DNA of 42,331 nt from a virus, in the IMG/VR virus record IMGVR_UViG_3300030202_001922, positions 2,702 to 45,032 of that record, one strand, 5' to 3'. Below the pieces are notes generated by a model. The model had not been told where the DNA came from and searched no databases. It saw nothing but the letters and a program-made list of their open reading frames with translations. Positions 2,356-39,691 of the stretch are shown here, in pieces; the stretch's first letter is position 1; the number at the start of each line of letters is the position of its first letter. Position numbers and translations under genes: made by a program.

Positions 2356-5073
2356 TTATTTTTTTATTATTCGTTTGTTTATTATTTTATTTTCATATGT
2401 TATTTGTAACATATACACCCCAGAACTTAATCTAGACATATCTAAGATGTTTGTATTTTCTTTTGATATAACTATATCCCCAATGTAATTTAATAAGTTT
2501 ATATCAACGTTTTTACTTATGTTTATTTTATCTTTAGTTGGATTTGGATACACAACTAAATAATCGTCTAAACTTTCTCTAGCTGGTATTGGACCAGTGT
2601 AAGTACTATCGCAATAATCATATGTTAACTGACATATATTATCCCACTCGTTATTACAACAATAATCATCTACTAAAATTACCCAAGCGTAGCAAGGATC
2701 ATTAAGCCAGTAAGGATTACCGGCACCAGATATACAACCAGCATCGTAAAGACAAGAAACGCTATCATGAACATTAGCGGAAACATTATAATTATAAGCC
2801 GATTGGTCCATACAACCTTCCACAATTGTAATACAGCTTTCGTTATCTGTGTTTGCAAGTGGATCATAGTTAAGCGCAGTGGAGTCCATACATCCATATA
2901 TATAAGCAATGCAACTAAAATCTTCCGTGTTTGCCAAAGCATCATAATTAAGCATAGAAGGATCCGTACAACCAAGTATAAAAGGAATACAGCTACTATT
3001 GTCAACATTTGCTAAAGGATTATAATTAAACATTGTACTATCAGTACAACCATAAATTGGTAATATACAGCTAAAATCATCTGTATTACAAGTATCACAA
3101 TAATTTAAAGCTATTGGATTTGTACATCCTAAAACTACCGGTAAACATGTACCGTTATCTGTGTTAGCCAAAGGATCATAGTTGTATGCTGATGTATCCA
3201 TACACCCATAAATATACTCTAAACAAGAACCATTATCTGTATTAGCTAATGGATCATAATTCCACATTGTAGCGTCTGTGCAGCCATAAAAGTAAGGTAT
3301 GCAAGAATCATCATCTGCGTTTGCGCTAGGTGAATAGTTCCACATAGTACTATCTGTACATCCATATATTACGCCTATACATGAACCATCATCAGTATTT
3401 GCTAGTGGATTATAATTAATAGCTATATCACTCATACAACCGTAAACCACAGCTATACAAGTATCAGGCGTATTTGCTTGTGCATTGTAATTAAAAGCTA
3501 AAGGCTGCATACAACCCATAATAACAGGTATACAACCACCATTATCAAGGTTAGCCAATGGATCATAATTAAAAGAAGCTGTATCAATACAACCCCACAC
3601 TGCTTGTGTTTGGCAATCACCATTGTTATAATCAGCTGTAAAACCTTGAGTATAATACTCTAAAAATTGTGGATCAGTACAACCGGGGCTATAGTAACAA
3701 CTACCATCAGTAGTATTTGCTGTATCATTATAATTATAAGCTAAAGCATCCATACAACCATAAACATAAGGATCACATATAGTAGGACAGTTTGGTACTG
3801 TTATATAGTTATCTGGGAATATTTGTATTTTATCGCTCCAAGGATTTGTACCTCCTGACATTATAGTAACTCCTTCTGGATTTATTAATTTAAATCCAAT
3901 TTGATCTAATGTAGCGTCTGAACTTGTTTGACTATAAGCTCTAATAGTAACCGGATGGTTTGATTTTAAATTTAAATATATATTTTCTACAAAAGAGTTT
4001 GTATTAGTATATGGACCAAATATATTACCCAATTGATTTACAACAACGTATGCTCCCAACCAACCATCACCTCCACCATCTGTTAATTGTAAAGTATAAT
4101 TACAACTATCTTCCATTAATGGTACGTTAGCTAAAACGTTAAAATCAAACATTGTTGTATCCATGCAACCTACAACTCTTGGCGTAACGCATAATGCTGA
4201 GTTCATTATATCAGCTGCTGGATTAAATTCTAAATAACCTGGATCAGGACAACCAACCACTGGTATCCAACTACAATCTTTCATTGCAAATGCATCTGAA
4301 GTATCTGAGTGTCCAAAGTTTAAATTATCTCCAGGCATTAAACTGTATATAGTATCACCACACTCATCTGTAACTAAAACGTTACCATCAACACCTCCAA
4401 AACAACTACCACATATACCATCACCATAAGAGTCGCGTATAATAAACCTTACTGTATCTTCAATAGAAACACATATTGTTTTTTCGTACAAATTACCTGT
4501 TCCAATACTACCGAAAAATGGTCTTTCAACATTATATAAAACACTGTCATCTTGGTTTATAATATCTAAAGATGTTTCTCCAGCATATTGATCTGGTGTA
4601 AACTCTATAGTTATCGATGTTTTTGTGGTATCTAAACAATCATCTTGTGGTGGTGGAATAGCGTAACAGTTAGCTGGTATGTTTGCTAAAGGATTATAAT
4701 TATCATAGTTAGGATTCATACAACCTGAAATACAAGCAAAATCATTTGCAAAAATAGTATCTGTAAAACTACCGTCTTGCATTTCTAAAAAAAACCAAAA
4801 GCCATCTGAACTAGCAAATGGATCTCCTTGACTATAGTTATTATAAAATTCGTAATTAGTATCTAGTTGATCATACCAACTCCAAGACCAAGTATTGTAA
4901 GGTGTGCCTTGGTGATAGTTTTGTACAACACATCCACTATCTAGTGATTCCCACTCTACAAAAGTTTTAGCGTAACCATATATACATGTATCTTTAGCTT
5001 CTAACGTTGGAACGCAGTTTTGGCTAAACGATAATATTGGTAACAATAATAATAGTAATAGTAATTTTTTCAT
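2356..5073 (-). CDS. Exported Cys-repeat protein with T9SS type A sorting domain
   Basis: I place the start at the ATG at 5073 (905 aa), not the in-frame ATG at 5139. The 5073 start lies one base after the upstream stop, has a GGAG nine bases away, and opens directly into the signal peptide MKKLLLLLLLLPILSFSQ, a typical Bacteroidota form. The body holds about sixteen repeats with pattern GC-(M/T)-D-x4-NY-(D/N)-PLAN-T-D-(D/N)-G-S-C, denser toward the C-terminus. Two Gly/Asp motifs, DSYGDG and GGGDGW, lie in the N-terminal half. The last about 70 residues have the type A T9SS tail marks: VVYPNPTKDKINI, LSSGVYMLQI, and a basic end KRIIKK. Such tails target proteins through the host type IX system to the cell surface or medium. 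The gene sits inside a run of phage genes with the same strand and A/T-rich style. Its role is unknown: surface adhesin, receptor shielding or competitor exclusion are candidates. Confidence 0.85.
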   Translation of the reverse strand: MKKLLLLLLLLPILSFSQNCVPTLEAKDTCIYGYAKTFVEWESLDSGCVVQNYHQGTPYNTWSWSWYDQLDTNYEFYNNYSQGDPFASSDGFWFFLEMQDGSFTDTIFANDFACISGCMNPNYDNYNPLANIPANCYAIPPPQDDCLDTTKTSITIEFTPDQYAGETSLDIINQDDSVLYNVERPFFGSIGTGNLYEKTICVSIEDTVRFIIRDSYGDGICGSCFGGVDGNVLVTDECGDTIYSLMPGDNLNFGHSDTSDAFAMKDCSWIPVVGCPDPGYLEFNPAADIMNSALCVTPRVVGCMDTTMFDFNVLANVPLMEDSCNYTLQLTDGGGDGWLGAYVVVNQLGNIFGPYTNTNSFVENIYLNLKSNHPVTIRAYSQTSSDATLDQIGFKLINPEGVTIMSGGTNPWSDKIQIFPDNYITVPNCPTICDPYVYGCMDALAYNYNDTANTTDGSCYYSPGCTDPQFLEYYTQGFTADYNNGDCQTQAVWGCIDTASFNYDPLANLDNGGCIPVIMGCMQPLAFNYNAQANTPDTCIAVVYGCMSDIAINYNPLANTDDGSCIGVIYGCTDSTMWNYSPSANADDDSCIPYFYGCTDATMWNYDPLANTDNGSCLEYIYGCMDTSAYNYDPLANTDNGTCLPVVLGCTNPIALNYCDTCNTDDFSCILPIYGCTDSTMFNYNPLANVDNSSCIPFILGCTDPSMLNYDALANTEDFSCIAYIYGCMDSTALNYDPLANTDNESCITIVEGCMDQSAYNYNVSANVHDSVSCLYDAGCISGAGNPYWLNDPCYAWVILVDDYCCNNEWDNICQLTYDYCDSTYTGPIPARESLDDYLVVYPNPTKDKINISKNVDINLLNYIGDIVISKENTNILDMSRLSSGVYMLQITYENKIINKRIIKK

Positions 5074-5074
5074 T

Positions 5075-5446
5075 TTATTTTTCTCCACATTTTTTACTAG
5101 GGTTGTTAACTTGCACCCAGTTTTCTTTAAACCAATCACGCAGTGTGGCGCCTTTTTTACGAGCGCCTTTTACATTAGTACTTGCTGGTCTTTTATATTT
5201 ACCTTCTTTACCAGACTTTTGTTTAGCGGCAACTAAACTTGCTTTTTCTTTTTTACTCATAGCGTCTAGCTTTGCTTTTGGTAAACAAGTTTTTCTAGTA
5301 CCGCCACCTTTTTGTTTTTTTACCGGCGATCTAGGCACACAGTTAGGCACAGTTCTACCATCTTTCTGCTTATAACCTTCTTGCTTGTGAGATTTCCAAC
5401 AAGGTAGCGGGCTGTTTTTAGTAAATTTAGACGCTATGTCGTACAT
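5075..5446 (-). CDS. Lys-rich, Cys-containing small basic protein
   Basis: A 123-aa strongly basic protein with four cysteines, at WKSHKQEGYK upstream (CWKSH), VPNCVPRSP, TRKTCLPKAK and the C-terminal KKCGEK. The block with KDGRTVPNCVP and a later MSKKEKASLVAAKQK segment resembles small basic proteins I remember from marine phages and large algal viruses, some carried as uncharacterised DUF families. I am not sure enough to name a family. The C-terminal half contains a single aromatic motif, LRDWFKENWVQVNN. It is one of five small basic genes lying between 5075 and 7152. Nucleic-acid or polyanion binding, perhaps with metal or disulphide stabilisation, is plausible from charge and cysteines, but no function is established. 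Confidence 0.6.
   Translation of the reverse strand: MYDIASKFTKNSPLPCWKSHKQEGYKQKDGRTVPNCVPRSPVKKQKGGGTRKTCLPKAKLDAMSKKEKASLVAAKQKSGKEGKYKRPASTNVKGARKKGATLRDWFKENWVQVNNPSKKCGEK
5083..5086 (-). promoter_or_regulatory. Shine-Dalgarno site deciding the start of the T9SS-tagged gene
   Basis: The reverse strand reads GGAGAAAAATAAAATG, with nine bases between GGAG and the ATG at 5073. Most genes in this window lack such a site, so it supports the internal start that leaves the signal peptide at the very N-terminus. Confidence 0.6.
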
Positions 5447-5447
5447 A

Positions 5448-5693
5448 CTATCCTTTTCTTATTTGAGCTAACATTGCTCTTTTTTCTCCTGGTGATAATT
5501 TTTTCATCATAGCAGACATTTTTTTACCCATAGCTTTAAGAGCAGAAGGCTTCATTGCTTTTGCAGGAGCTGCTTTAGTCATTCGTTTAGTTGGAGCTTT
5601 TTTACTCATTGCTTTTGTTGGAGCATTTTTAGTCATTCTTTTTGCTGGAGCTGCTTTCATTCTTTTTGCAGCTGATTTTTTTTCCATTGCCAT
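5448..5693 (-). CDS. Histone H1-like nonapeptide-repeat basic protein
   Basis: An 81-aa protein rich in Lys, Ala, Met and Pro, with essentially no acidic residues in its middle. Residues 15-50 are four copies of a nonapeptide, A-P-(A/T)-K-(R/A)-M-(T/S/K)-K-x, with prolines at 16, 25, 34 and 43, flanked by degenerate copies on both sides. The tail (KLSPGEKRAMLAQIRKG) looks like a short helix. Composition and repeat style resemble histone H1-like or Alp-type bacterial DNA-compacting proteins. Binding phage or host DNA is therefore a reasonable inference. It overlaps the PAP2 gene's stop by one base (TAATG), so the two are probably translationally coupled. A virion-packaged role cannot be excluded. 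Confidence 0.6.
   Translation of the reverse strand: MAMEKKSAAKRMKAAPAKRMTKNAPTKAMSKKAPTKRMTKAAPAKAMKPSALKAMGKKMSAMMKKLSPGEKRAMLAQIRKG
5544..5651 (-). repeat. 27-base tandem repeat encoding a nonapeptide, four copies
   Basis: Four in-frame 27-base units encode APAKRMTKN, APTKAMSKK, APTKRMTKA and APAKAMKPS. They are degenerate at the DNA level, so the repeat is maintained as protein and is not a fresh slippage product. Confidence 0.75.
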
Positions 5694-6214
5694 TATATTT
5701 TGTTTTTAATATGGTTATACATTTGTTTTCCTAATTTTTCACCCGCAAGATTATCTGATTTATAATGCGTGTGTGCTACTGATCTACTATGGATTATATC
5801 CCTAGCTAGTTTTTTTAATTTATCTTCTTTTTCTGGATACTTATCAGATAAAACTAAAGACAATAAAGTTGCTTGTGTTGCGTGACCAGACGGGTATGCT
5901 GGTGAGTTCATTGATTTTAACTTTATATCTTTAAGTTCTATACCTATTTTTTTTGCTAATACAGCTGGCCTTGGTCTATTAAAATGTTTTTTTAATTTAT
6001 TTATTATAACTAAAGATTTTGATATTAACTTACCTATTAAAGGATCTTTACCTACAATTTTAGTAAACAACTTTTCACCATCGTCCATTTCGTTAATAAA
6101 CTTTTCTCTTATAGGTATTTTTTTTAATTCTTTTATTTCGTTTTTAGTCGTAATAGAATTATCACCTGGTGGTTTGTTTTTTTTAAATTCTGATATGTCA
6201 AAGTCTTTAAACAT
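5693..6214 (-). CDS. PAP2-superfamily phosphatase, soluble form
   Basis: A 173-aa protein with all three signature motifs of the PAP2 / vanadium-dependent haloperoxidase superfamily: KX6RP at K75-P83 (KKHFNRPRP), PSGH at 108-111 (YPSGHATQ), and SRX5HX3D at 143-154 (SRSVAHTHYKSD). The family hydrolyses phosphate monoesters or lipid pyrophosphates using a phosphohistidine intermediate, here H150, with H111 as acid/base. No signal peptide or clear membrane helix is visible, unlike lipid phosphatases such as PgpB, so it resembles soluble class A acid phosphatases without their leader. It sits among small basic genes near exported and lysis genes. Substrate is unknown: undecaprenyl pyrophosphate, phospholipid or phosphorylated nucleotide pools are all possible. 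Confidence 0.85.
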   Translation of the reverse strand: MFKDFDISEFKKNKPPGDNSITTKNEIKELKKIPIREKFINEMDDGEKLFTKIVGKDPLIGKLISKSLVIINKLKKHFNRPRPAVLAKKIGIELKDIKLKSMNSPAYPSGHATQATLLSLVLSDKYPEKEDKLKKLARDIIHSRSVAHTHYKSDNLAGEKLGKQMYNHIKNKI

Positions 6215-9107: not shown

Positions 9108-12100
9108 TTATCTTTTAAAAGTTTCTCTCTTAAAACTTTCTCTTTCAAAAACCCCTTTTTTCTTTTTTCTTTTCTTTGTATTTGCTTTATTTATTTTAAC
9201 TTTTTCTTTTGCCTCTATTATAGCTTCAGTGTCACCTAAACCTAAACTCCAAGTAGTATAACCGCTAAAAAACATTACTCTTTGGAAATTAGTATAATCT
9301 TTATCAAGCGCATTACGCATGTTTATACTTTTTTGATATAATCTGTTAGCTGGAAAATTAGTTAAAGCTTGAGTATAATTAGTTACAGCTGACCACATTG
9401 GGTTATCAGCTTCAAAAGTTTCCATTTCACCTATAACGTTTTCGTTATAATTAAGAGTTTTTTCAGCGTTAACCAACTGCCTTACTTTAATACCTACAAC
9501 AGGTGAAAAGTTTAAAAGCTCCATTGGAACTGCGCTTTCATCTTTGTTGTATCCTTTTTCTCTTTGTTCTTTAAATTTAATTAATGCATTTTTTAAAGTA
9601 GAAACAACAGCACCATATATACCAGCACCTCTCAATATAGAGTCTATACTACCATTTATAACTCTTTCTCTTTTCTTTAATATTTGATCCTCATCTTCAT
9701 CATCACCAAACATAACCGCAAACAAAGCAGTTTGTAAGCTATAGAATATAACGTTTTGTATTGCCCCGTAGTATAGTATTTTAGATAAATTACCTAAGTT
9801 ACTTTGTGCTTTAGTTGTATATGGCGGTGATATTCTACCTTTTCCAATATCTAAAGCAGCTTTTTTAATTATTCTATTATACTGAGATGTAATATTTTGA
9901 AAGTTTAATACTAACTTACCTATCCAACTAGCTTGTTGCTGTGATGTCATGTCAGGTCTTGATGACTGCTGAGTTGATTGAGTTAAGTCTTGAAAGTCTG
10001 TAAAAGCTTTAGCTTCAGCTTCTTTTTTACTTAAACCATCTTTAATATACTTATTTATTCTGTTTCTATAAAATGTAGCTCCACCCGTAGCAATTGCAAT
10101 ATTATCACCAATTTGTGTAGGTAAAAATCCTAATTGTAAAAGTTTACTTATAACTACTTTAGTAGGATCTTTTGATCCTTTAACTGCTTGAGCAAGGTCA
10201 GCACCGTTAATATCTGTACCAATACCACCACGTCTTTGTTTTAACATGTCAGAATTAAATATAAACGCAAAATCTTTCCAGTATTGAGGTTGATTTGCAA
10301 AAGCCTTAGCTGCTGCAAACATATTGTTATCAGCAAAGTTTATATAGTTAACAATAGACATTTGCTGTAATATAGCAGATCTAACGTTAAAAAACATCAC
10401 TGTACCAACTGAACCGTTTAAATAATTCATAAACTTATTCATAGTAGCATGTTGTCCTTTTGGTCTGTTTACACCAGTACTAATTCTATGTAATATATCT
10501 TCTAACGCGCTTCTAAAATCAGCACCATAAGCAGCTTCAATTTTATTTAAATTTTCAGGTGAAAATATTATATCAGCGTTTTCATTAAACTCTGTAAAAA
10601 ACTCTGCTCTACCAACTCTACCAGTAGCATCTATTAAATCTGTTTTTATATTACCACCTTCCCAACCTTGACCTGGGTCTGTGTATTTATCTTGTTTAGA
10701 AATAATATTAACTGTATCAGCATATTGCCTAAGATCTTTGTCGTTCATTACAAGTTCAACAAGATTTTTTTGATCAGTAGGCGATAATCCTGGTATACTA
10801 TAACCATGTTTATTCCATAAGTAAACTCTTATAGCATCTTCAAAAATAAAATCACCATCTGGTGTTTTCTTTGTAAGTTTCTTTTTTACATCTGCAAGCT
10901 GTTCGTTTAATGCTTTGTAATCATTTGCTATAGCTTGTTTAGCAGTATCTATTTCTCTATAAGCTCTATTTAAAGGTCTAACTAAAGCTTTTTCAAAAAA
11001 GTCTCTATGTTGATCACCTTTTCTGCCTTTACCCATAAAGTTGTACAATAAACCTACAAAATCCTCATGTGATGGTGGTATAAAAAATCTAAATTTACCT
11101 TTACTAGCACCACGCTTTCTAGCCTTAATATCTGAAAAACGTTTTATAGCGTCAATACCAGTTACTTCTTCTAGTATGTTATTAAAGTCAGTATTCATAC
11201 TTTTGCTAAACTTAACTTTAGCTTGTTGAACTTTACGCTTAACATCAAACTGTTCTAGCATATTATCTACTGCTTGTACGTTTTGTAAAGCATCATCAGC
11301 AAAATAAAAGTCATTATAGCCATCAGCAACTTTATCAGCAACCCATAACGCTTTAGCTTCAGAAGTGCTATTACCTAGGCCAGTTATATTTTTTAAAGGT
11401 ATATTCAAGCCATTAGCTTTTAAAAAGTCAAATATAGCTTTAGCCGCTTGAGGTGGTCTAGCTGTTAATACAAACATATTTTCAGGACCAAACTTGCCTT
11501 GTAGCTTTATTGCTTTTTTAAACAATGGTGCTAACTTACCTTTTACAACTTTATTAAAGTCCGAAAAATCAAATACATAGCCTTGATCTTGTAAATCTTC
11601 ATATGTACTAGCAAACTCTTCAGCGTTTAAAGTTCCGGTTTTACCATCTGGTGTAGTATATTTAACTAAAGACTCAGTTGTAGCTAAAGTGTCATCAAAA
11701 TCTAAAATACTAATACCTTTAGGTGGTTTTGACGCCATTGTTCTAACATTGTTTACTGCTTTGCTAAACTGTTGTTGTGGTTTTAAATTAGATTTTATAA
11801 TCGGTGATTTACCAGACATAGTAACACCATACTCGTCAGCAAATGTTTTGCCATTTTTAATCACTCTAAGATTATTAGGATTTATAGCGTTAACATCTGT
11901 ATTAAAATATCTGTCAAACCAATTGTCAAGAAAAATATCCCAACCAACTCCCATGCCGTTTTTATACTTTATTAAAACACCATTTTCATCTATGTATTCA
12001 GCTGCGTTTAAAGTTGTATCATCTTTTAAAGATAATGCTATTAACTTATAGTTTTTCTTAATAGCTTTTAAAGTTTCATTAAAATCTTTTGGGTTATTCA

Positions 12101-15100
12101 GTAAAACGTCCAATAATAAATCTCTTACAGTAGCGGTTTGCACGGCATGCTCATATCTTATTTCACCTGTAGCTGTAACGTCACCACCAATATATTCAGC
12201 TCCACCCCTAAGTGGATGTGAAGTATCGTTTCCAGCTGCAGATAAATATAAATTAATAGCAGAGTGAAGTTCTTTGTCTTTTGGATTATCTTCTATAGCT
12301 TTTTTAATCATATCTACCATATCATTAAAATTAGCTTGACCAACTTCATTATATCTTTTAGCTTGAGCTTTAGTTATTGCTTTTATGTTTTTACCTAAAG
12401 CAGCATCAGGTCTAAGATAATCTCTATCTTGAGATTTACCTATAGTCAATAAACCTAAGTCTTCAAATAAAGTACTTGATCTGGCATAATCTTTTACAGC
12501 ACTGTTAGTAAGTGTACTACGTAAATCAACAGCTCTAATTAAACCAGGTTTACCATATGTAGAAAGTAAAATTATTTTATCTGTAAATATATCAAAATTT
12601 TCAAAACCGTTTTTAGGATCGTTTATTTTTAAATCAGGTAAATCTTCTTTAACACCTTTACTAAACATGATATTAGAAATACCATCTTTTATGTTTTGTA
12701 TTGTCTGTTTGCTATCACTCAAAAGCTGTAAGTTTTCTCTCACAGCTTGATTAGTCATTATTTTGCCTGTTAAATTAGCTAATGCTAAAACTCTAGCCGA
12801 TGTGTTTCTATCGGTACGATCTGGTTTACCATCTATTATGCCAAATGTTTCTAAAAACTCTTTTTTATTAATTTTGTTTTTAACCTGTATGGGTAAGCCT
12901 GACGTGCTACCTGTTTTAGCCATTTTAGCTCTATCAGTTTTAGTGTAAAAAGCTTTTAGTAAACTGTTAGGCACACCTGTTGCAGTGCCACTTTGTGTAG
13001 ATCCTTCAGGTAACATACTAATTAATAAATCAGCATTTTTATTAATAAACATTTGAGCAGCTTGCAACTCTTTTTTAGTTATATTAGCTAAAGTTTTTAA
13101 TTTTTTAGGGCTTATACCAAACATTTCACCAGTAATACCAGGTACTAAGTTTTTTAATTTTTTAAATGTTAATTCTTTAACATTTATTTTTGGTAATTGT
13201 TTTTTAATAGATTCATTAACTTTACTTTTAACGTTTAGTCTGTCAGCTAAAAATATTTTTTTAGGTTTTGGTTTTCTTGTAACTGTAGGTTCAACTATTT
13301 CTTCTGCTGCGATATCAACTCTTTCTGTAATATCTTCTGTAAACTCTTCGCCTAAAATTTCACGAGAAGCTTCTATCATTCTTTCAGGTAGCAAGTTGTT
13401 AATAAAACCAGCTAATGGCGCTACTTTTTTACCGTCTTTTTGTTGTTTTTTAACATAAGCTGGGTAAGCCTTTATAAGACCCATTATACTTCTTTGCTTA
13501 CCTGTTTTTTCGTTTATTAAACCTGTTTCTATCTCGTCTGTTAATAGTTGTCTATCAAAACCAGGGGCTTCGCTACGTTTATCTACTAATTTTCCTACTA
13601 TAGGTTTAAACTCTTTTAATATATCAAATATACCAGCTTCACCTTGTTCTTCGTATATACGTTGCACATTGTCAGAAGCTTCTTTAGACATTTGAACTGT
13701 AGCCTCTGGTTTAACTTTACCTTTAACTAATTCACCTTTAACACCTTCTTTTGCTAAATTTAATATAGCTTTATTTATTTTACCTTCTTTAATACTTTTG
13801 CTATAATCTTTTACAAAATTATAAACATCTCTTCCGGTATCAAATGTAATTTCTTTACCTAAATAATTTTGACTAAATCTTCTTACAATATCACCAATTT
13901 TAGTAAAAAAGTTTTCTTCAAACTTTAAACTACCATCTATAATAGATTCAGACATTATAGTTATTGTTTCTTCACCAAAATTATCATCTCTAATAAAAGT
14001 TCCATCTTCCTGAAACTTTCCATAAGCAGACAATCTTTGACCTAAAATACTAGTATCACCACCTAGTTTAGATGTGTGTTCAACCAAAGCATCGCCTAAA
14101 GCGTCTTGTATATTTTTATTGTTACCAATAGTTTTAAATAATACAGCATGCATAAACTCATGTGCTGCTGTACCAACCATTGGTTTGTCTTTGTTAAGTA
14201 TTATTTGAAAGCTACCATCTGTAGATTGTCTAATAAAACCAAATTCTTTTGCTGCGGCTTTAGAATTAAAACCTTCTTCTTTAATATTTGATATTTCTTC
14301 AGAAGTCATTTCAGTAACTTTACCTTCTAATCCAGCTTCTTTTATTTGTTCTTTTACAGTTTCTGTAACTTGTTCAGCAGCTCTTGCTGTAGCCGTTGAT
14401 TGTACTTGGTTTATTTCTTCACTTAATTTTTTATCTTGATTATTTAAACTTCTAATACCGTAACCAAATTCTCTGTTTGTTATTTCACCGTTTTCTAATT
14501 TTGCTCTTAAAGATTCTGCTTTTTCTTTAATACCATCTTTTTCATTTAAAACATTTATTAACGATGTTTTTTCATCTTCAGTAAGAACTTCGCTTAATTT
14601 TCTTTTTTCAATTATATAGCTTTTAAGATCTTGCTCAGCTGCCTTTATCTCTAAATCAATAGCATCTTTTATATCTTTATCTTTTGTACTATATTTTGCG
14701 TTGTTTAAATCAGCTAAATTATTTATTTTATCATTAACTTCTTTTAAACTAGCATTATCGTTTCTTAAAGCTCTATTAACTAAACCACCAGCACCAGCAA
14801 TAGTAGTAGAACCAATAAATCCACTGAAAAACATTTCTAAACCTTTATCACTAGCCATATCATTAAAAGCCAATACAGATGCTTCCTCTACGGTTTTACC
14901 TTGACCTAAACTCGTGTTCATTGTTTCTAAACCAAGTTGTCCAACTTCAGTAGCGCCTTCACCACTACCAACCCATAATAATTTTGTAAATCTAGCGGCT
15001 GTACCTGGTTTTGATGCTATATACCTAGTAACACCTCTAAGTCCAACTCGTTCTAATCCATAAGCAAGACCACCAAGAGCCATTGGTAATGCAACTTCAG

Positions 15101-16625
15101 TTTCATTATTAGATACTAACTTGTTAAGAGCATCTTCATCATCACCATATTTTAATTTTGCTTTAGCAACGTTATAATCGTTGTACATTGGAGCGGCTAT
15201 TTGAGGAAACAAACTTACACCAGCTGTAACGTAAGCTGGACCTAAAGTTTCTATCATACTAGTAACTGAATTCATTACACCACCAACTACATCAGATACA
15301 TCACCAGTTTTAACACCAGTAACCATACCTTTACCATCATATTTATATAGTAATTTTGTAGCTTCTATTTCTTTATATTTATTAGCTAGCCAAATATCTG
15401 TAGATTCTCCAACTTCTTCTCTAGTATCTTTATAAATAGGTTTAACATTTTTATTTTTATTTAACTCTTTCCATTTATCTGGATTTTTATCAAACAAAAT
15501 ATCTTCACCAGTATTTGGATCAATAAAAATAATACTACCTTTATCTCCTCCTAATAAAAAATCAGTAGCATCTTCTCCAGCAGTTTTTCTTAAAAAATCT
15601 ATACCCATAGCCTGTGTTTGGGTAAGGGTGTTTGCCAACCTTATTGGCATATCATCTTTAATATTTATTGCATTTTGTTTTATTTGAGCCCTTTCTTTTG
15701 GATCTTTTAAACCTTCGTATAAAGCCGCTGCTGATACCGCTAATTTATATTTTAAACCACCAAAAGGTAAATCAGTGTTCCAAACACTACTTAAAGCTAT
15801 TGACTTGGGATCCAAAGAACCATCGTCCAACTTGGATGCCGTATCTTCGACATCCACAGTGGCATCCGGCTGTGGTGTTACTCCCTTTACTTCTGGGGTT
15901 GAAAAAAACTGATTTGTAAAATCATCAGATGATTTAGTGTAATCTCCTTTTTGGTTTAAGTGATTATATAACTTTTCTCTAGATTCTTGATTTGAAAATT
16001 GTTTTATAAAATCATCGTATGATTTAGTATATTCACCATTATCAGTTAAATGTTTATGTAATTTTACAGATGACTCGTTAGTAGTAGGCACTGGTTGTAC
16101 TTCTGGTTGACTAGTTAATAAAGAATCAGCTATACTAAAGTTTCTATTAGTTATACCTTTATAACCAGCATCACCTTCTTCTAATACTTTTCCACCTGCT
16201 TTTCTTAAATTAGGATTTTCTTTTATTATTTGTTGTGCTTTTTCAATATCACCAGAGTTAATAGCTTTTATAATACCACTTTTTCTAACATTACCCATAC
16301 CACTTCTATAAAGTAAATTTGTAAGCGCATCTCTTTGTTCTTGTGAAACATCTTTATTAGTTAAAACAGAGTTAGCTTGATCAGTATATATTTTTTTTAT
16401 TTTAGGCATTAAATCTTTTGCTTGTTGCCTAGACATAGTTTTACCTGTTGAAACACCACTTTTATCCCAATACTCACTCCAGTGTGGTCTACCATCTTTT
16501 CCATCTAAAGAGTATTTAGTATAACCAAAACCAATTGTTGTGGTACCGCCAACGTCTGAATATGGAAGACCACCTTCTTTAAAACCTTCTTGTTTTATTA
16601 ATTCTTCTTCTAATACTTCGCTCAT
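9108..16625 (-). CDS. Giant polyvalent ejection protein: lysozyme, zincin and HAD domains
   Basis: A 2505-aa multidomain protein, last of three putative internal virion proteins. Residues 1-165 form a T4-type lysozyme (GH24) with the catalytic set E13, D24, T30 in EGFKEGG...YSDVGGTTTIGFGY. Residues 188-210 and 218-240 are two copies of an HL-x3-G-(E/D)-YTKS-x-DDF motif. Hydrophobic stretches occur near 445-480, 510-530 and 600-618. A zincin motif AAHEFMHAVLF gives H822, E823 and H826. A HAD-type phosphatase domain follows at about 1637-1785: DFDDTLA (D1642, D1644), VLTARP (T1721), a candidate motif-III Lys (K1758 or K1765) and FADDA (D1777, D1778). The rest is largely helical. The tail is very basic with a small FERESFKRETFKR repeat. 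Position and N-terminal muralytic domain parallel T7 gp16, and domain variety fits phage polyvalent proteins, injected to breach the wall and act early in the host. Confidence 0.85.
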   Translation of the reverse strand: MSEVLEEELIKQEGFKEGGLPYSDVGGTTTIGFGYTKYSLDGKDGRPHWSEYWDKSGVSTGKTMSRQQAKDLMPKIKKIYTDQANSVLTNKDVSQEQRDALTNLLYRSGMGNVRKSGIIKAINSGDIEKAQQIIKENPNLRKAGGKVLEEGDAGYKGITNRNFSIADSLLTSQPEVQPVPTTNESSVKLHKHLTDNGEYTKSYDDFIKQFSNQESREKLYNHLNQKGDYTKSSDDFTNQFFSTPEVKGVTPQPDATVDVEDTASKLDDGSLDPKSIALSSVWNTDLPFGGLKYKLAVSAAALYEGLKDPKERAQIKQNAINIKDDMPIRLANTLTQTQAMGIDFLRKTAGEDATDFLLGGDKGSIIFIDPNTGEDILFDKNPDKWKELNKNKNVKPIYKDTREEVGESTDIWLANKYKEIEATKLLYKYDGKGMVTGVKTGDVSDVVGGVMNSVTSMIETLGPAYVTAGVSLFPQIAAPMYNDYNVAKAKLKYGDDEDALNKLVSNNETEVALPMALGGLAYGLERVGLRGVTRYIASKPGTAARFTKLLWVGSGEGATEVGQLGLETMNTSLGQGKTVEEASVLAFNDMASDKGLEMFFSGFIGSTTIAGAGGLVNRALRNDNASLKEVNDKINNLADLNNAKYSTKDKDIKDAIDLEIKAAEQDLKSYIIEKRKLSEVLTEDEKTSLINVLNEKDGIKEKAESLRAKLENGEITNREFGYGIRSLNNQDKKLSEEINQVQSTATARAAEQVTETVKEQIKEAGLEGKVTEMTSEEISNIKEEGFNSKAAAKEFGFIRQSTDGSFQIILNKDKPMVGTAAHEFMHAVLFKTIGNNKNIQDALGDALVEHTSKLGGDTSILGQRLSAYGKFQEDGTFIRDDNFGEETITIMSESIIDGSLKFEENFFTKIGDIVRRFSQNYLGKEITFDTGRDVYNFVKDYSKSIKEGKINKAILNLAKEGVKGELVKGKVKPEATVQMSKEASDNVQRIYEEQGEAGIFDILKEFKPIVGKLVDKRSEAPGFDRQLLTDEIETGLINEKTGKQRSIMGLIKAYPAYVKKQQKDGKKVAPLAGFINNLLPERMIEASREILGEEFTEDITERVDIAAEEIVEPTVTRKPKPKKIFLADRLNVKSKVNESIKKQLPKINVKELTFKKLKNLVPGITGEMFGISPKKLKTLANITKKELQAAQMFINKNADLLISMLPEGSTQSGTATGVPNSLLKAFYTKTDRAKMAKTGSTSGLPIQVKNKINKKEFLETFGIIDGKPDRTDRNTSARVLALANLTGKIMTNQAVRENLQLLSDSKQTIQNIKDGISNIMFSKGVKEDLPDLKINDPKNGFENFDIFTDKIILLSTYGKPGLIRAVDLRSTLTNSAVKDYARSSTLFEDLGLLTIGKSQDRDYLRPDAALGKNIKAITKAQAKRYNEVGQANFNDMVDMIKKAIEDNPKDKELHSAINLYLSAAGNDTSHPLRGGAEYIGGDVTATGEIRYEHAVQTATVRDLLLDVLLNNPKDFNETLKAIKKNYKLIALSLKDDTTLNAAEYIDENGVLIKYKNGMGVGWDIFLDNWFDRYFNTDVNAINPNNLRVIKNGKTFADEYGVTMSGKSPIIKSNLKPQQQFSKAVNNVRTMASKPPKGISILDFDDTLATTESLVKYTTPDGKTGTLNAEEFASTYEDLQDQGYVFDFSDFNKVVKGKLAPLFKKAIKLQGKFGPENMFVLTARPPQAAKAIFDFLKANGLNIPLKNITGLGNSTSEAKALWVADKVADGYNDFYFADDALQNVQAVDNMLEQFDVKRKVQQAKVKFSKSMNTDFNNILEEVTGIDAIKRFSDIKARKRGASKGKFRFFIPPSHEDFVGLLYNFMGKGRKGDQHRDFFEKALVRPLNRAYREIDTAKQAIANDYKALNEQLADVKKKLTKKTPDGDFIFEDAIRVYLWNKHGYSIPGLSPTDQKNLVELVMNDKDLRQYADTVNIISKQDKYTDPGQGWEGGNIKTDLIDATGRVGRAEFFTEFNENADIIFSPENLNKIEAAYGADFRSALEDILHRISTGVNRPKGQHATMNKFMNYLNGSVGTVMFFNVRSAILQQMSIVNYINFADNNMFAAAKAFANQPQYWKDFAFIFNSDMLKQRRGGIGTDINGADLAQAVKGSKDPTKVVISKLLQLGFLPTQIGDNIAIATGGATFYRNRINKYIKDGLSKKEAEAKAFTDFQDLTQSTQQSSRPDMTSQQQASWIGKLVLNFQNITSQYNRIIKKAALDIGKGRISPPYTTKAQSNLGNLSKILYYGAIQNVIFYSLQTALFAVMFGDDEDEDQILKKRERVINGSIDSILRGAGIYGAVVSTLKNALIKFKEQREKGYNKDESAVPMELLNFSPVVGIKVRQLVNAEKTLNYNENVIGEMETFEADNPMWSAVTNYTQALTNFPANRLYQKSINMRNALDKDYTNFQRVMFFSGYTTWSLGLGDTEAIIEAKEKVKINKANTKKRKKKKGVFERESFKRETFKR
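15906..16064 (-). repeat. Two 23-residue repeats after the lysozyme domain
   Basis: Residues 188-210 and 218-240 of the polyvalent protein share the pattern KL-(H/Y)-x-HL-x3-G-(E/D)-YTKS-x-DDF-x-x-QF, spaced by 30 residues. The two copies are clearly homologous at protein level. They may bind peptidoglycan or a virion partner, but I know no function. Confidence 0.65.
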
Positions 16626-16638
16626 ATATTAATTTATT

Positions 16639-18456
16639 TTAAAAGTCGTCTACGCTACCACCGGTTGTACTAGGAAAGTTTGCCATCATAGTTGTTCTAC
16701 TTCTACCTTTGTCTTCTGTAAAATATTCTCTTTCTGGTAATTTGATTGCATCCTTATCTAAAGGAAGTAAAAATTCTGAATTTTCTTTTATAAGTCTTAA
16801 CAGGCCTTTGAAGTTTTTAGGATTTACTTTACCCATAACATCAGCATTTGGAGCTATAACAGCAATATCTCCATCATCCATTACTTGAAATACTCTATTG
16901 CTTACTAATGTAATATTACTTAAATCATTAATATCAAAATCATTTTCAATTGCTTTTTCAACAATTATTCTTTGATTTCTAGATCTTCTTTCGTCTTTAT
17001 CTAATCTTCTACCTGTATCAGCTTCTTCTTGCTCAACACCAATACCCATTTTCTTTCTATGATTATCAAAAGCAGTTTTAGTGTGACCGCTATACCAATC
17101 AGTTACGTCATTAATTAAACTTTGTTTTTCTTCTAAAGTTGTAGGCCTTAAATATCTTTGTATTACTTTTTCTTTATCTTCTTCAGTTAATTCATCTGCT
17201 GTTAACATGTTATCGTTGTTTTTATCAACTGAACCTGTTAATCCTAAACTACTGTATCTTAAAGTACTAATAGATGGAGATTTTTTAAAATCTTCTCCAA
17301 AGTTTCTATCTTGTCCTCCAACTTGTATATCTCTTGACAATAAATCTTCTAAATTTGTTTCCTTAGCGTTTAATAAAATTTTAAATTGACTCTTAACACT
17401 ACCTTCTACTTCAGAGTAGTCAGTATGTAAAAGACCTTTTGATTTACCATCTGCTTGTGTTATCATTTCTTCAGCTAACTTAGTACCACTTGTAACAATA
17501 TCATTTAACTTTCTTTCAGCAGCCCTGTCTTTTGGTCTTATCATGTTCATTAAATCTAAATATCTAACAACCATTTTATCTTTTGAAGTATCAGTTAATT
17601 CAGCTTGTTTTCCAAGAGCAGCAGCAGCTTCTCGTCCTCCTTGGTTTTTTAAATATTCTTGAAATAATCTATTAGGCGAAGCTTCAAAGTATAAATCACC
17701 ATCAGCGGTTTCAGTTTTTACACCATTAACATAAGATCCTCTAAAAGATTTAATACCCATACCTTCAAGATCTGCGCTTCTATTTATTACTTGAGCAAAC
17801 AATGTTTCATATTCAGTACCTGTAAGTTCGTCTCTAGTACCGTCTTTATTTATTATTTCAAAACTTCTACTTAAGTTAGCTTCATCTCCACCGTATGTAG
17901 CAGTTGCAATTGTTGCAGCAGCATTTTCTGCAATTATTTTTTCTCTAAGTGATTCTAGTTGACCACGCAAAGCCGCTCGTTTTTGTTTTCCTTTTTTACC
18001 TATAAACTTTTGACTATTTAAATCTTTTAAACCATCTCTTATTTGCTCAAAACTTGTTGTGTTTACGTTTTGAAGCGATGCGTTTGGTGGTTGGTTTTTC
18101 TCATATCCACCAGCTTCTTGTTTTGCTGATTCAACAGCATTAGTTCTAGATAAATCTTTTATACCTTCGTTTACATCTGTAAACCAACCTAATTCATCTT
18201 TAATTTCAGCTTTAATAGCTTTTTGTTGTTTAATATCTTTTGCTATAAGTTTACCACCTAGTTCCATAGAACCTCTTACACCTTGCTCTATAACACGACT
18301 TAAACCCCTACCTTTTGTTCTGTAAGCATCTATTAATCCTTCAAATTGTTTATTAAAAATAGCGCTATGATCGTTAGATATATAGGATTGACCTAATCTA
18401 AACGCTGAGCTAACTAAAGTTGCGTCTGCTTTTATTGCCATATTTCTTTTTTTCAT
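16639..18456 (-). CDS. Putative ejection/internal virion protein with EF-hand loop
   Basis: A 605-aa protein, mostly helical and charged, in the place of T7 gp15. Its C-terminus is Thr/Ser/Gly-rich (MMANFPSTTGGSVDDF). Residues 411-422, DKNNDNMLTADE, match the EF-hand/dockerin calcium loop with ligands at positions 1, 3, 5 and 12 and a hydrophobic at 8. An ATG at 18441 (MAIKADATLVSSAFRLG) is an alternative start, since most virion genes here begin MA. The first start at 18456 gives a Lys/Arg-rich lead of five residues. It lies 8 bases after the 264-aa gene and 13 before the polyvalent gene, so the three are probably co-expressed and assembled together. Function as an ejected protein is inferred from gene order. 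Confidence 0.6.
   Translation of the reverse strand: MKKRNMAIKADATLVSSAFRLGQSYISNDHSAIFNKQFEGLIDAYRTKGRGLSRVIEQGVRGSMELGGKLIAKDIKQQKAIKAEIKDELGWFTDVNEGIKDLSRTNAVESAKQEAGGYEKNQPPNASLQNVNTTSFEQIRDGLKDLNSQKFIGKKGKQKRAALRGQLESLREKIIAENAAATIATATYGGDEANLSRSFEIINKDGTRDELTGTEYETLFAQVINRSADLEGMGIKSFRGSYVNGVKTETADGDLYFEASPNRLFQEYLKNQGGREAAAALGKQAELTDTSKDKMVVRYLDLMNMIRPKDRAAERKLNDIVTSGTKLAEEMITQADGKSKGLLHTDYSEVEGSVKSQFKILLNAKETNLEDLLSRDIQVGGQDRNFGEDFKKSPSISTLRYSSLGLTGSVDKNNDNMLTADELTEEDKEKVIQRYLRPTTLEEKQSLINDVTDWYSGHTKTAFDNHRKKMGIGVEQEEADTGRRLDKDERRSRNQRIIVEKAIENDFDINDLSNITLVSNRVFQVMDDGDIAVIAPNADVMGKVNPKNFKGLLRLIKENSEFLLPLDKDAIKLPEREYFTEDKGRSRTTMMANFPSTTGGSVDDF
17191..17226 (-). other. EF-hand-like calcium-binding loop
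   Basis: Twelve codons encode DKNNDNMLTADE within the 605-aa protein. The pattern D-x-N-x-D-N-M-L-x-x-x-E matches the canonical loop, with Asp at 1 and 5, Asn at 3, Leu at 8 and Glu at 12, and helix-like sequence after it. Confidence 0.6.
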
Positions 18457-18464
18457 TTTTTAAT

Positions 18465-19259
18465 TTACATTCCCATCATGCCAGTAGATAATGAACCTGC
18501 TGAACCTGTTATACCAGCTATACCAGCAGTAGCTCTTTGTTGATGCATTGATGCCTCAGCACCTAATAAATTTGCTTGAGCAGCTCCCGCTGCCATTTGA
18601 TTACTATATGCTTGTTGTAAAGCTGCGTTAGCACCAGCGGCTTGTCCTGCTTGCATACCTAATAATGTTGCTTGTCTACTCATTTCAAACTCTTGTTTCA
18701 TTTGCTCACCACCTCTTTGTGCCATGTCAGCAGCTTGAGCGCCTTGTGCTATTGCCATTTGATTAGCAGCTTCTTGTTGTCCTATTGAAGCTGAGATCTG
18801 TTGAGTTTGTAAAGCCCCTTGATTTGCCATAGCTTGAGCTAAACCAGCAATACCACTACCACCAGCTGAAGCTCTTAAACCTTGCATTATATTGGCTCTT
18901 TGTTGAGCACCTTGTTCTGCTTGAAACTGAGCTTGTTGTTGGTTTACAGTTATATCTTCAAAAGCATTTTCCATGTTTTCATATGGATTAACAAACTCCA
19001 TAGCCTTGTATTCTTTTTTTTGTGCTTCAAGCTTTGCGTTTTCTTCTTGTTGTCGTTTTAATGCTTCGTCTGCTATTCTTTTTTGTTCTGCCATATTGGC
19101 ATCAGCAATTTCTTTTGCATCTTCCATCCTTCTTCTTGCTTTACTTCCTTGATGAGCAGCTATTCCAGCCCCAACAATCATTCCAACAGCACCCAATGCT
19201 AATCCAACTCCTGCAGCGCCACTCATTTGTTTCATTGGAGATGATTTTTTATTTGCCAT
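18465..19259 (-). CDS. Ala/Gln-rich internal virion protein, T7 gp14-like
   Basis: A 264-aa protein with one hydrophobic span near residues 15-35 (AGVGLALGAVGMIVGAGIAA), then a highly charged helix (KARRRMEDAKEIADANMAEQ onward) and a long Ala/Gln/Gly/Met-rich segment with repeated QQ and AxQ patterns. The C-terminus is Gly/Ser/Met-rich. This composition and size are typical of small phage ejection proteins such as T7 gp14, which insert in the outer membrane and start the injection conduit. It precedes the 605- and 2505-aa proteins in the same order as T7 genes 14, 15 and 16. The leader upstream is a 51-base A/T-rich gap with no promoter I can recognise. Confidence 0.65.
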   Translation of the reverse strand: MANKKSSPMKQMSGAAGVGLALGAVGMIVGAGIAAHQGSKARRRMEDAKEIADANMAEQKRIADEALKRQQEENAKLEAQKKEYKAMEFVNPYENMENAFEDITVNQQQAQFQAEQGAQQRANIMQGLRASAGGSGIAGLAQAMANQGALQTQQISASIGQQEAANQMAIAQGAQAADMAQRGGEQMKQEFEMSRQATLLGMQAGQAAGANAALQQAYSNQMAAGAAQANLLGAEASMHQQRATAGIAGITGSAGSLSTGMMGM

Positions 19260-21414: not shown

Positions 21415-24400
21415 TTATTCTCTTGATGGTCCTCCTAATGGTCCTGATGGTCCTGATGAAGAAATTGGTGATGGTCTACTAGCTACAGATTCACTAGACG
21501 TATCTCTAGATGTAGTTGTACTAGATGAAGTTGAATCAACACCGCTTGATGTTTCAGTTGTTGCTCTTGTATCTACAGCTACACTAACACCTAAGTTTTG
21601 AAATCTTTGTACTGCTTGTGAAACCGCTTGTTGAATCGCATTATTTGAAATTGATATACCAGCTTGTTGAGCAACTTCTACTTGTGCTAATACTAAGTTT
21701 TGAATATTAGATTGTGTAATATTTGTTACTACTTGTGTTGGAGTAGTTGATATTGCCGCATTACCACCAGCATCAGCACTAACTAATCCCGTTTCAAAAC
21801 TTTGGCTTGTACTTGCTTGAATTGAGCTTTGTACAGTGTTAGAAACTGAGGTACCACTAAAATCTAGTGATCCAACACTACCACCATATCCTACTGCGCC
21901 ACCACTTCCAGCAGCACCACCTGCAGCACCACCTAACCCACCTGTTAAAACACCAGTGCCAGTACTAGTACCAACACCAACACTAATACCAGTACCAGTA
22001 GTAGTAGCTGGACCACTTGATATTACCGCTCCTCCAGTAGTTGAAGATCCCGGTGCTGGTCCTACTGGACCACTAGAAACGGTACCACCTGCTATTACAG
22101 CGCCACCAGCACTTACAGATCCTGGTGCTGGACCTACTGGGCCTGTTGGAGTTATTGGACTACCTGATACTGGACCTCCAGAACTAGCAGCTATTCCACT
22201 GTCTCCATTAAAACCTATACCTTGAAAAGTAAAGTCACCTGTATCAGCTCCAATTAAATTTAAATCAATAGTTCTATTTATATTGTTAAACCATTGACCT
22301 TCTTTTTCTATAAACTCATTAATATGACCAACTTCTTTATCTGTTATAATAGACTCAACAAACCAACCATCTTTACTTGATAAATTATAAAACTCTTGAT
22401 CGTTATAAATAGTATCTGGTTGATCATAATAAGTATGAATCTCACTAGTAAATTGATTTATCTTTGATTGACTACCTTCGTAATTTAAAGTGTTAAACGC
22501 TTTTATAGCAGAAGGATTATTGTTTAAAATTACATCAACAGTTGACGGTGTAAACTCATTGTAAAAAGTATTTCTATCTTGATCTTCAGAGTTATGAAGA
22601 TATAAGTTTCCATTTTTAAACGTGTAATAATCGTTAGCCATGCTAACTCCTTTTTCCATACCTACAAACGATTTAAAACTAGTCCATCCTTTTACTTTTT
22701 CACTAAATGATAATAAGTTTGTATCAAACTCAACACTAAAATTCCACACACCGCTTGACGCAAACCATGATTGAAAATCAAGTGTTGTTAATGAAATATT
22801 GTATTCATCATTTCTATCATCATAACTACCTAAAATTCTAAATAACGTAGTATCTTTAAGGTGATCTCTAAACCAATCTTTCATACCATGCTCAGATATC
22901 GGTGTTAAACCATCTCTAGATAATCGCATAACAGTTCCTCTAACTCTATCACTAAAATAAGCTCTATATGACTTTGATGCAAATGATTCAGGATTTTTTG
23001 ATATACCATACTCACCTATAAAAGGAACTGCTTGTCCTAAAACATTTTCAGTAGCTGTTAATTGTGCATTTCCGTCAGCGTTAAATACAGCATCTTTATT
23101 AGCTAATATTTTTAATACTTTATCTTCACAAAGTGTAACTAAATCTGTATCTCTAGCAAATAATTTTTGTATACTACCAAATCTTGGATTTAAATCTTTA
23201 GTAATTTTTTCTGCTTGAATAAATTGGTTTAAGTTATTTGTACCACTAACTGAATTATAAATTCCAGAATATATTAAACCATTTTGTCTTCGTTCTTCTG
23301 CATATTCATCTTCTAAAGTAGTAGAAACTTTAACTCCATTAGAAATAAATGGTAAATTAAAATTATCTCTAATTCTGTTTGATTCTACTCCATTACCAAA
23401 CGAATAACAATTATACCAAGGTAACCAAAATGAATCATTAAAAAAGTTTTCTTGGAATCTAGCTCCGTCTGCACTAGTGTTTAAATATTCTGTATTTACT
23501 ATTGTATCATCAGGTCTAACAATACTAAGTATTTGTCCTGATACAACAGTTGAAGGAATTGGAGGGGTAAGTTGTACTCTATCTCCATTATATCCTGTAA
23601 CAACGTTAATTAAAATAGCTCCACTAGCTACATCAACAGTAATAGTAAAAGAACCAAGAGGAAACGCAGCTTCAATAGTTTCGTCTGTAATTCTTATTGG
23701 TATTGTAGGACTAGCTTCATAATATATATCTAAATCTTTTGTATCTTTTGGCTCTGTTTCCCAAATAGCAGGATTTTCTGATAATATTTCTTCTCCTTCA
23801 AGCGGCTCAAGAAACTCTAAAGTATACCCAACAGCTCCAACTTTACCAATTTTAGACCAACCCTGTGTAAGAGTATGAGTACCCATGGTATTTATATTAA
23901 ACTCTGAGTTATGGCTATAACCATTCATACCAACCTGCACAAATTCAATATTTGTATTAACATCAGGTCTTTTAGCTGGTTGTGCTAGTTTATGACTATT
24001 AACATCTAAAGGTCTTCTCCATCCACCCAAATACAAAGCGTAATACGTATCACCACTAGCATTTTCTAAAGGCTCTATATACCTTACAACAAAGTAAGTT
24101 TCAACGCTAGAATTAATATGGGTTTTTAAAACGTTAAAAGATCCACCTAAAGTATATCTATATAATGCCATACCAGTGTGTATTGAAGCTTCTGCATCAC
24201 CTCCACCAGTATTTGTTCCAGATAAATCTGTTACATATACTATTAAATCATCATGCCAACTTGTTCCAAAAGCTGTTGTTGGTCCAGTTGAATTACCTGC
24301 TTTAGAGCAAGTTATTAGTTTTATTGTTAATCCACCACTAGGTCTATTATCTAAAGGGTTCCAATCTAGTTGAGGTGTAATATTACCCATTTGCCAACCT

Positions 24401-38881: not shown

Positions 38882-39156
38882 TACTTAGATCTTCCTTCTG
38901 CAAATCCTTTGAATACTCTTTCTTTCTTTTTTTCAGACGTTTTACCTTCCAAAAGGTTTTCTTCTTCTTGTATTCTATTGAGTATTTCAAATGCGTCAAA
39001 TATAGCTAATTTTTTAGTAGCTGCGGCGTTCTTTAATCTATCTGCTGATATATCATCGTCTGAATCAACGATTGCTTCTTTTGCTACTTTAATCAGCTCT
39101 TCAACTGCCTTGTGTCCAGCTTGGATTATATTCTTCTTCGTCTCCTTGATATTCAT
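38881..39156 (-). CDS. Possible terminase small subunit
   Basis: A 91-aa, largely helical, charged protein immediately upstream of terL and coupled to it by a TAATG overlap. It begins MNIKETKKNIIQAGHKAVEE and ends EKKKERVFKGFAEGRSK. Small subunits of terminases are often short helical DNA-binding proteins encoded just before the large subunit, so position and composition suggest that role. No helix-turn-helix is certain. Its start lies inside the end of the 196-aa gene, a 56-base overlap, and I see no later ATG in the first part of the frame. Confidence in function is low, while the reading frame is credible. Confidence 0.5.
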   Translation of the reverse strand: MNIKETKKNIIQAGHKAVEELIKVAKEAIVDSDDDISADRLKNAAATKKLAIFDAFEILNRIQEEENLLEGKTSEKKKERVFKGFAEGRSK

Positions 39157-39691
39157 ATTTGATTGTAATTAAATTTGATAAAACTCGATATAGTCTTTCA
39201 CCATCTACTATAAATTCAGATTCAGTTTTTGGTTTATAACCTATTAAATCTTTAACTTTTACTGTACCGTCTGAATACTTAACAATACCTTGTAAAGGTT
39301 TTTCACATTCAGTATTAAACTGATCTATAGCTTTTAAAGGTTTTATAAAACAATAACCTTTTGGAGCTTTCCACTCATCATCTCTTTTGTATAAAAAAAT
39401 TTGATCATGATTTATAAAATATGTAGACTCATTAAAATAAGATCTACTATTTTTTTCAATGCCTTTAACGTTATGCCATCTACGAAAAACATTGTGATGT
39501 ATTATAACTGTATCTCCTGGTTTTATATTTGTATTACCAATAATTGGAGTTGATATAACAACAGCTTCTCTATTAACATATTGATGGTTAAAAATCTCTG
39601 TATTAAGAATTAACTCTCCGCCATCTAGTTTTTTAGTATTATTATATCTTTCTCCTTTTGGCCTTACAACAAAGTTGTAAACGCTTTTCAT
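39101..39691 (-). CDS. GroES-like double-domain protein
   Basis: A 196-aa protein that looks like two GroES/Cpn10-type units. The first (about 1-100) has VYNFVVRPKGERYNNTKKLD, GGELILNTE, AVVISTPIIG, IKPGDTVIIHHNVFRRWHNV and a final YFINHDQIFLYK strand, matching the order of Cpn10 strands including the GD-V-hydrophobic motif. The second (about 105-185) has PKGYCFIKPLKAI, LQGIVKYSDG, DLIGYKPKTESEFIVDGERL and NLITIKYEYQ. A phage co-chaperonin, as in T4 gp31, would help fold the capsid through the host GroEL. The mobile-loop region between the first strands is present but not recognisable as IVL. It starts in a TAATG overlap with the 73-aa gene. A non-chaperonin use of the fold is possible. Confidence 0.5.
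   Translation of the reverse strand: MKSVYNFVVRPKGERYNNTKKLDGGELILNTEIFNHQYVNREAVVISTPIIGNTNIKPGDTVIIHHNVFRRWHNVKGIEKNSRSYFNESTYFINHDQIFLYKRDDEWKAPKGYCFIKPLKAIDQFNTECEKPLQGIVKYSDGTVKVKDLIGYKPKTESEFIVDGERLYRVLSNLITIKYEYQGDEEEYNPSWTQGS

Follow-up and report, generated by a model that had tools for sequence, protein, structure and literature searches.

The window analysed here, 42.3 kb (42,331 nucleotides) of a 49.2-kb IMG/VR viral contig, contains a single unbroken ATG frame of 2505 aa at positions 9108-16625 on the minus strand, encoding a 279-kDa protein that we refer to as P0001. This ORF is certain. The plus strand across 9108-16625 is full of stops, and the continuous 2505-aa frame that an earlier, sequence-only reading had proposed at these coordinates is upheld, with the minus strand, which that reading had omitted, now assigned. 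From the N to the C terminus the protein consists of a lysozyme, small repeats, a variable region, a zincin, a conserved block, a domain designated EHA, a HAD phosphatase domain and a helical C terminus (coordinates of all parts of P0001 below are window positions on the minus strand). The motifs named in the sequence-only reading lie where it had placed them: HEFMH at residues 822-826, DFDDT at 1642-1646, VLTAR at 1719-1723 and YFADD at 1774-1778. The phage that encodes P0001 is best explained as a marine, short-tailed phage of Bacteroidota-type bacteria. Its terminase matches 87 phage records, with 62.7% identity to an uncultured podovirus and 45% to Flavobacterium phage elemo, the remaining matches being to Flavobacterium, Cellulophaga, Tenacibaculum and Maribacter phages, and the portal protein agrees. 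A 927-aa protein encoded in the window carries Por_Secre_tail, a sorting tag of type IX secretion, which likewise fits a Bacteroidota host. A host search in bacterial genomes returned nine matches, all in metagenome bins of mixed taxa, and gave no pointer to a host. When whole P0001 was compared with named phages, the sole match was of the lysozyme part to Variovorax phage V45v66, and the N-terminal 260 aa found no match in viral contigs.

The GH24 lysozyme (residues 1-175, 16101-16625) is an equally certain match: Pfam Phage_lysozyme aligns with residues 20-149 at 1.1e-13 (52 bits against a cut-off of 22.3), and solved GH24 lysozymes were matched by phmmer at 7.5e-7. The sequence-only reading had recognized this domain by E13, D24 and T30, and all three are present in P0001, Glu13 lying outside the HMM alignments and being assigned by eye. 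The spacing of Glu13 exceeds that in T4 lysozyme by two residues. Pfam detected the lysozyme in only one of the 91 sequences scanned (37 chains, complete or partial, plus 54 additional N-terminal stretches of 900 aa), that of P0001. Two relatives, L009 and L022, start at approximately residue 186 of P0001, and the lysozyme therefore appears to be an N-terminal extension ahead of the usual start. Behind it are two short YTKS-type repeats (residues 186-246, 15888-16070) that are homologous to the N termini of relatives. A hydrophobic stretch is found at residues 598-616 (14778-14834) and a second at residues 2288-2306.

A gluzincin-like zincin fold is likely, from alignment and modelling, in residues 765-900 (13926-14333), with HEFMH encoded at 14148-14162 and E886 as a candidate third ligand. 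Residues H822, E823, H826, R864 and E886 are invariant over 27 aligned zincin regions, and HExxH is found in 93 of 99 non-redundant relatives, being absent in four near-complete ones. The AlphaFold2 (AF2) model of the zincin half (mean pLDDT 73) places the HEXXH helix after three strands and E886 in a helix further on, and the same layout, an HEXXH helix and then a Glu in the following helix, is known from the peptidases of polyvalent proteins (PMC5512222). The zincin profile also matches gp18 of elemo6-9C around its HEIFH motif, with a probability of 94. P0001 fell below the Pfam cut-off for a zincin, and a PDB fold search with the zincin-half model gave nothing significant, the zincin-bearing 1j7n being matched at E 0.57 and probability 0.15. 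The zincin is followed by the conserved block (residues 970-1323, 12657-13718), bounded by MSK (979-981) and FSK (1321-1323), and by the EHA domain (residues 1400-1612, 11790-12428; pLDDT about 90), whose EHA and GA motifs are invariant; with no Pfam family above cut-off and no PDB match, it is a candidate for a new enzyme domain.

A HAD fold is likewise likely in residues 1635-1806 (11208-11723), where motifs I, II and IV are encoded at 11688-11702, 11457-11471 and 11292-11306. Across 30 aligned relatives there is no variation in the residues of HAD motifs I-IV (D1642, D1644, T1721, K1758, D1777 and D1778). Motifs I and II were both found in 95/99 non-redundant relatives, the other four being chains cut by contig ends, and the spacing between them in this set is 77 residues, except where six sequences have inserts and three are shifted by 1-2 residues. 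The AF2 model of the HAD part (mean pLDDT 62, with the HAD strands mostly at 65-85) follows the HAD order of motif I strand, beta hairpin, helices, motif II strand, a further strand, lysine helix and motif IV strand. The HAD of P0001 fell below the Pfam cut-off, and two relatives, L012 and L018, passed the cut-off of DUF2608, a HAD-clan family. PDB sequence profiles gave chance hits only, and the closest PDB HAD by Foldseek, Lem4, was a weak match (E 0.38, probability 0.77); several small proteins in a viral library matched the HAD-sized part with E-values no higher than 3e-4. The zincin and HAD domains of the sequence-only reading are thus likely folds, not proven ones: the invariant residues and the predicted order of secondary structure, a check which that reading had proposed, fit both at moderate confidence, but the Pfam cut-offs were missed and the PDB Foldseek matches were weak.

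By sequence comparison, P0001 certainly belongs to a large family of marine-virus proteins, and it is the HAD domain, not the lysozyme, that is the constant module of this family. Relatives were first collected with patterns from P0001, none of them inside the HAD domain, which gave 36 loci; a HAD domain was present in all 31 loci covering the region, and it is followed by the C-terminal core in every contig that extends far enough. Querying with the HAD domain itself then yielded no fewer than 528 stretches; the 80 retained from these were not counted toward the universality of the HAD domain because they had been selected for it. Many of the 99 non-redundant relatives were gathered in this way, so that the unbiased figure for HAD is 31/31. 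Complete chains of relatives span 2135 to 3383 aa. The most conserved part of the family is the HAD domain together with the C terminus, which includes a conserved helical core (residues 1830-2470, 9216-11138) remotely related to Gundel_1 gp074, and the N-terminal and middle parts are swapped freely between relatives. With the lysozyme found only in P0001 and the HAD domain constant, the combination of lysozyme, zincin and HAD is peculiar to P0001.

A short motif recurs between the modules. FSK linkers lie before the HAD domain (residues 1620-1622, 11760-11768) and behind it (residues 1806-1808, 11202-11210), the latter site being a cassette boundary in L072, L093 and L116. Outside mapped domains, a category that includes unmapped domains since the mapping is incomplete, FSK shows the strongest excess among 294 comparable tripeptides (196 seen, approximately 45 expected), and FSR was seen 60 times against 18 expected. 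After removal of the homologous post-HAD site, the consensus [VI][KM]FS[KR]S is common to 141 mutually dissimilar sites. The sites of P0001 at residues 979 (MSK), 1321, 1620 and 1806 are in or beside stretches with pLDDT below 50. An extra module behind HAD lies between two copies of QQAKxKFS in L072 and L116, and a module behind HAD in L093 is bounded by FSKS sites. The consensus appears to mark linkers and cassette boundaries, and it looks new as a candidate processing or recombination site. Zincin-mediated processing has been proposed for polyvalent proteins (PMC5512222), and cleavage at the FS[KR] linkers of the P0001 family may likewise occur. Alternatively, the motifs could be mere recombination sites between repeated linkers, with the zincin directed at host proteins, and we put this at only slightly below even odds. 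In favour of this is the L072 and L116 module flanked by two QQAKxKFS copies, and the number of FS[KR] motifs showed no significant link with the zincin (2.0 in HExxH-less relatives versus 3.3, n = 4, P 0.25); however, recombination alone does not require a consensus to be kept at so many mutually dissimilar sites. Cleavage need not be invoked for the whole pattern, since modules exchanged through recombination between repeated linkers account for part of it.

Enzymes of other families are found within the HAD domain itself. In five relatives (L023, L029, L118, L123 and L130), a P-loop kinase of approximately 200 aa replaces the hairpin turn after HAD motif I. In HAD enzymes, C1 caps sit inserted in the hairpin after motif I, and the nested kinase would therefore sit over the phosphatase site. 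Pfam AAA_33 and Zeta_toxin score alike on this kinase; a one-target search aligned it with the T4 PseT kinase (hhalign probability 90.5, E 1.4e-6), and its other matches include annotated RNA ligase and kinase-phosphatase genes. T4 PseT also has a P-loop kinase and a HAD phosphatase in one chain, but its kinase is in tandem with the HAD rather than inside it, and a kinase nested in the HAD cap slot that resembles polynucleotide kinase-phosphatase looks new. The arrangement in the five relatives favours, without proving, a nucleic-acid end or a nucleotide as the substrate of the HAD domain.

One narrower form of our main explanation would make the HAD domain a polynucleotide 3'-phosphatase that enters with the DNA and heals ends, the kinase-bearing relatives being full polynucleotide kinase-phosphatases that repair genome ends or host-cut tRNA. 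The kinase in the cap slot, its alignment with PseT and its matches to ligase and kinase-phosphatase genes all point this way, but we consider the proposal tentative and rather unlikely. Zeta_toxin, a UDP-sugar kinase family, scores as high as AAA_33; one relative is labelled UDP-N-acetylglucosamine kinase in BFVD; the HAD domain aligned poorly with the PseT phosphatase (probability 7.5); and P0001 has no kinase, so that the polynucleotide kinase-phosphatase architecture of kinase and HAD in one chain is absent there. Furthermore, L021 has an unrelated insert of approximately 136 aa in the cap slot (L021 11064-12026, plus strand), and the slot may merely tolerate cassettes. The L021 HAD behind the insert is identical to the insert-less L009 HAD at 107 of 110 positions, so an insertion into the cap slot can be of recent date and perhaps without effect on function. 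The L021 insert was also considered as an ADP-ribosyltransferase and rejected, the end stretch being alike by eye only, with no Pfam or phage match. That the HAD or the zincin is a catalytically idle structural part aiding folding or packaging, as might be read from the constant adjacency of HAD to the C-terminal core and from the four near-complete non-redundant relatives without HExxH, is improbable given the invariant Asp pair of motif I, Thr of motif II and DD of motif IV, and the invariant H-E-H and E886 of the zincin.

The gene for P0001 closes the block of structural genes. Beside it are the genes for a 605-aa cysteine-free protein (16639-18456, minus strand) and a 264-aa cysteine-free protein with a Gly/Ala-rich hydrophobic N terminus (18465-19259, minus strand), candidate ejection partners in the positions of N4 gp51 and gp52, respectively; the N4 gene order of portal, head genes, gp52, gp51 and gp50 parallels that of the window. 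Proteins from the same locus in phi38:1, phi13:2, elemo and Gundel_1 carry structural annotation labels. The C-terminal core of P0001 gave a fold match to a Gundel_1 structural protein at 2.6e-8 and a profile match to Gundel_1 gp074 in a one-target search (E 2.1e-5, probability 77). P0001 has no cysteine in 2505 aa, for which the chance is about 8e-6 given the cysteine frequency of the remaining window proteins, the cysteine-rich 927-aa protein excluded, and cysteine makes up 0.05% of the P0001 family versus 1.13% of the remaining ORFs at these loci. Cysteine is also scarce in several further structural proteins of the phage. There is likewise no cysteine in N4 gp50, 51 and 52 (4294 aa) or T7 gp15 and 16 (2065 aa), T7 gp14 has one, and several N4 and T7 tail proteins have 3 to 14; lack of cysteine may thus be a cheap sequence marker of ejected phage proteins. 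Gene order, the Gundel_1 match, the zincin match to elemo gp18 and the absence of cysteine together suggest that P0001 is very probably a virion protein ejected with the DNA and organised like N4 gp50. The contrary idea, that P0001 is absent from the virion and is synthesised during infection as an early or late enzyme, has little chance of being right, with the gene order inside the structural block, the structural labels on syntenic proteins and a lack of cysteine in common with known ejected proteins all against it.

The sequence-only reading had put P0001 at the place of T7 gp16. Its position at the end of the structural block agrees, but N4 gp50, with gp51 and gp52, fits at least as well, and profile comparison detected no sequence homology of P0001 to either protein (hhalign probabilities of 5 or less). 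N4 gp50, like P0001, is cysteine-free and comes last in gene order after two smaller cysteine-free proteins. It consists of an HExxH domain and then a helical domain (PMC12633501), P0001 similarly having a large helical domain after its HExxH domain, and it is thought to traverse the tail as beads on a string (PMC12633501). N4 gp50 is, however, an RNA polymerase, whereas P0001 contains no RNA polymerase and has no detectable sequence homology to it. T7 gp16 resembles P0001 in bearing a wall-degrading N-terminal domain on a large cysteine-free protein, internal to the virion in T7 and probably so here, but its lysozyme is of another family, no homology is detectable and it has no HAD. Gundel_1 gp074 (Tenacibaculum phage, 2482 aa) and elemo6-9C gp18 (Flavobacterium phage, 3694 aa) occupy the locus of P0001, are cysteine-free and contain HExxH, and the Gundel_1 C terminus and the elemo zincin are remote relatives of the corresponding parts of P0001; unlike P0001, they have no HAD, and no lysozyme match was detected in them.

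Polyvalent proteins of phages and conjugative elements were described in 2017 (Iyer et al., PMC5512222), and the sequence-only reading of P0001 as a protein of this type with lysozyme, zincin and HAD modules is consistent with the Pfam lysozyme match, the invariant zincin and HAD residues and the models. P0001 has several domains in one chain (the class has two to fifteen), with an architecture that varies among relatives, and a zincin hub with an HEXXH helix and a Glu in the next helix. The giant multidomain chain, the HEXXH with a later Glu, the lysozyme module and strong module exchange are common to polyvalent proteins (PMC5512222) and the P0001 family, which differs from them in its constant HAD, the kinase nested in HAD and the recurrent FS[KR] linker motif; the words HAD-domain, haloacid and phosphatase are absent from the main text of PMC5512222. 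Of the large polyvalent protein-associated (LPD) domains, Pfam gave LPD14 at 0.02 in one relative only, and fold matches to proteins labelled 'polyvalent' were at 5e-4 and weaker.

We estimate at roughly 0.6 the probability that P0001 is a polyvalent protein serving a short-tailed Bacteroidota phage as its giant ejection (pilot) protein. Packaged alongside the DNA, its domains joined by flexible linkers, such a protein would exit the capsid through the tail along with its 605-aa and 264-aa neighbours, the helical C terminus serving packaging and passage. The lysozyme would open the peptidoglycan locally, and processing of the chain would fall to the zincin, with the FS[KR] linkers as possible cut sites. 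In the cytoplasm, the HAD domain would be a phosphatase with an open cap whose substrate is a phosphorylated macromolecule or a nucleotide, nucleic-acid ends being the likeliest. P0001 may attack or protect targets inside the host, as the sequence-only reading had suggested. A more elaborate version is quite unlikely: P0001 would be a self-processing injected polyprotein whose zincin cuts the [VI][KM]FS[KR]S linkers and frees effectors, including a nucleic-acid end-healing phosphatase, its cap carrying the nested kinase in some relatives, that shields the incoming genome or host tRNA against nuclease defences, with the linkers also serving as cassette-exchange boundaries. Most polyvalent proteins are known as domain lists only. 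In the P0001 family, a constant HAD stands beside variable enzymes, with a definite nesting slot and a recurring linker motif accessible to mutagenesis, making the cutting of the chain, its timing and the target of an injected enzyme testable at the bench.

Other genes of the window have features of their own. The 927-aa protein (2356-5139, minus strand) contains 53 cysteines and a C-terminal Por_Secre_tail (8.3e-11); it is apparently addressed to the host T9SS, and homologues were found in 61 of 125 related loci. A 173-aa phosphatase of the PAP2 superfamily (5693-6214, minus strand; 1.8e-9) is unusual for a small phage genome. A 2322-aa structural protein (21415-28383, minus strand) has approximately 900 extra residues (roughly 730-1650) compared with its 1300-1600-aa homologues in cultured phages. 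The terminase gene is adjoined by a GroES-like co-chaperonin gene (39101-39691, minus strand), and a GroEL-like ORF is found in the flank of the same contig (L039 1806-3371, minus strand).
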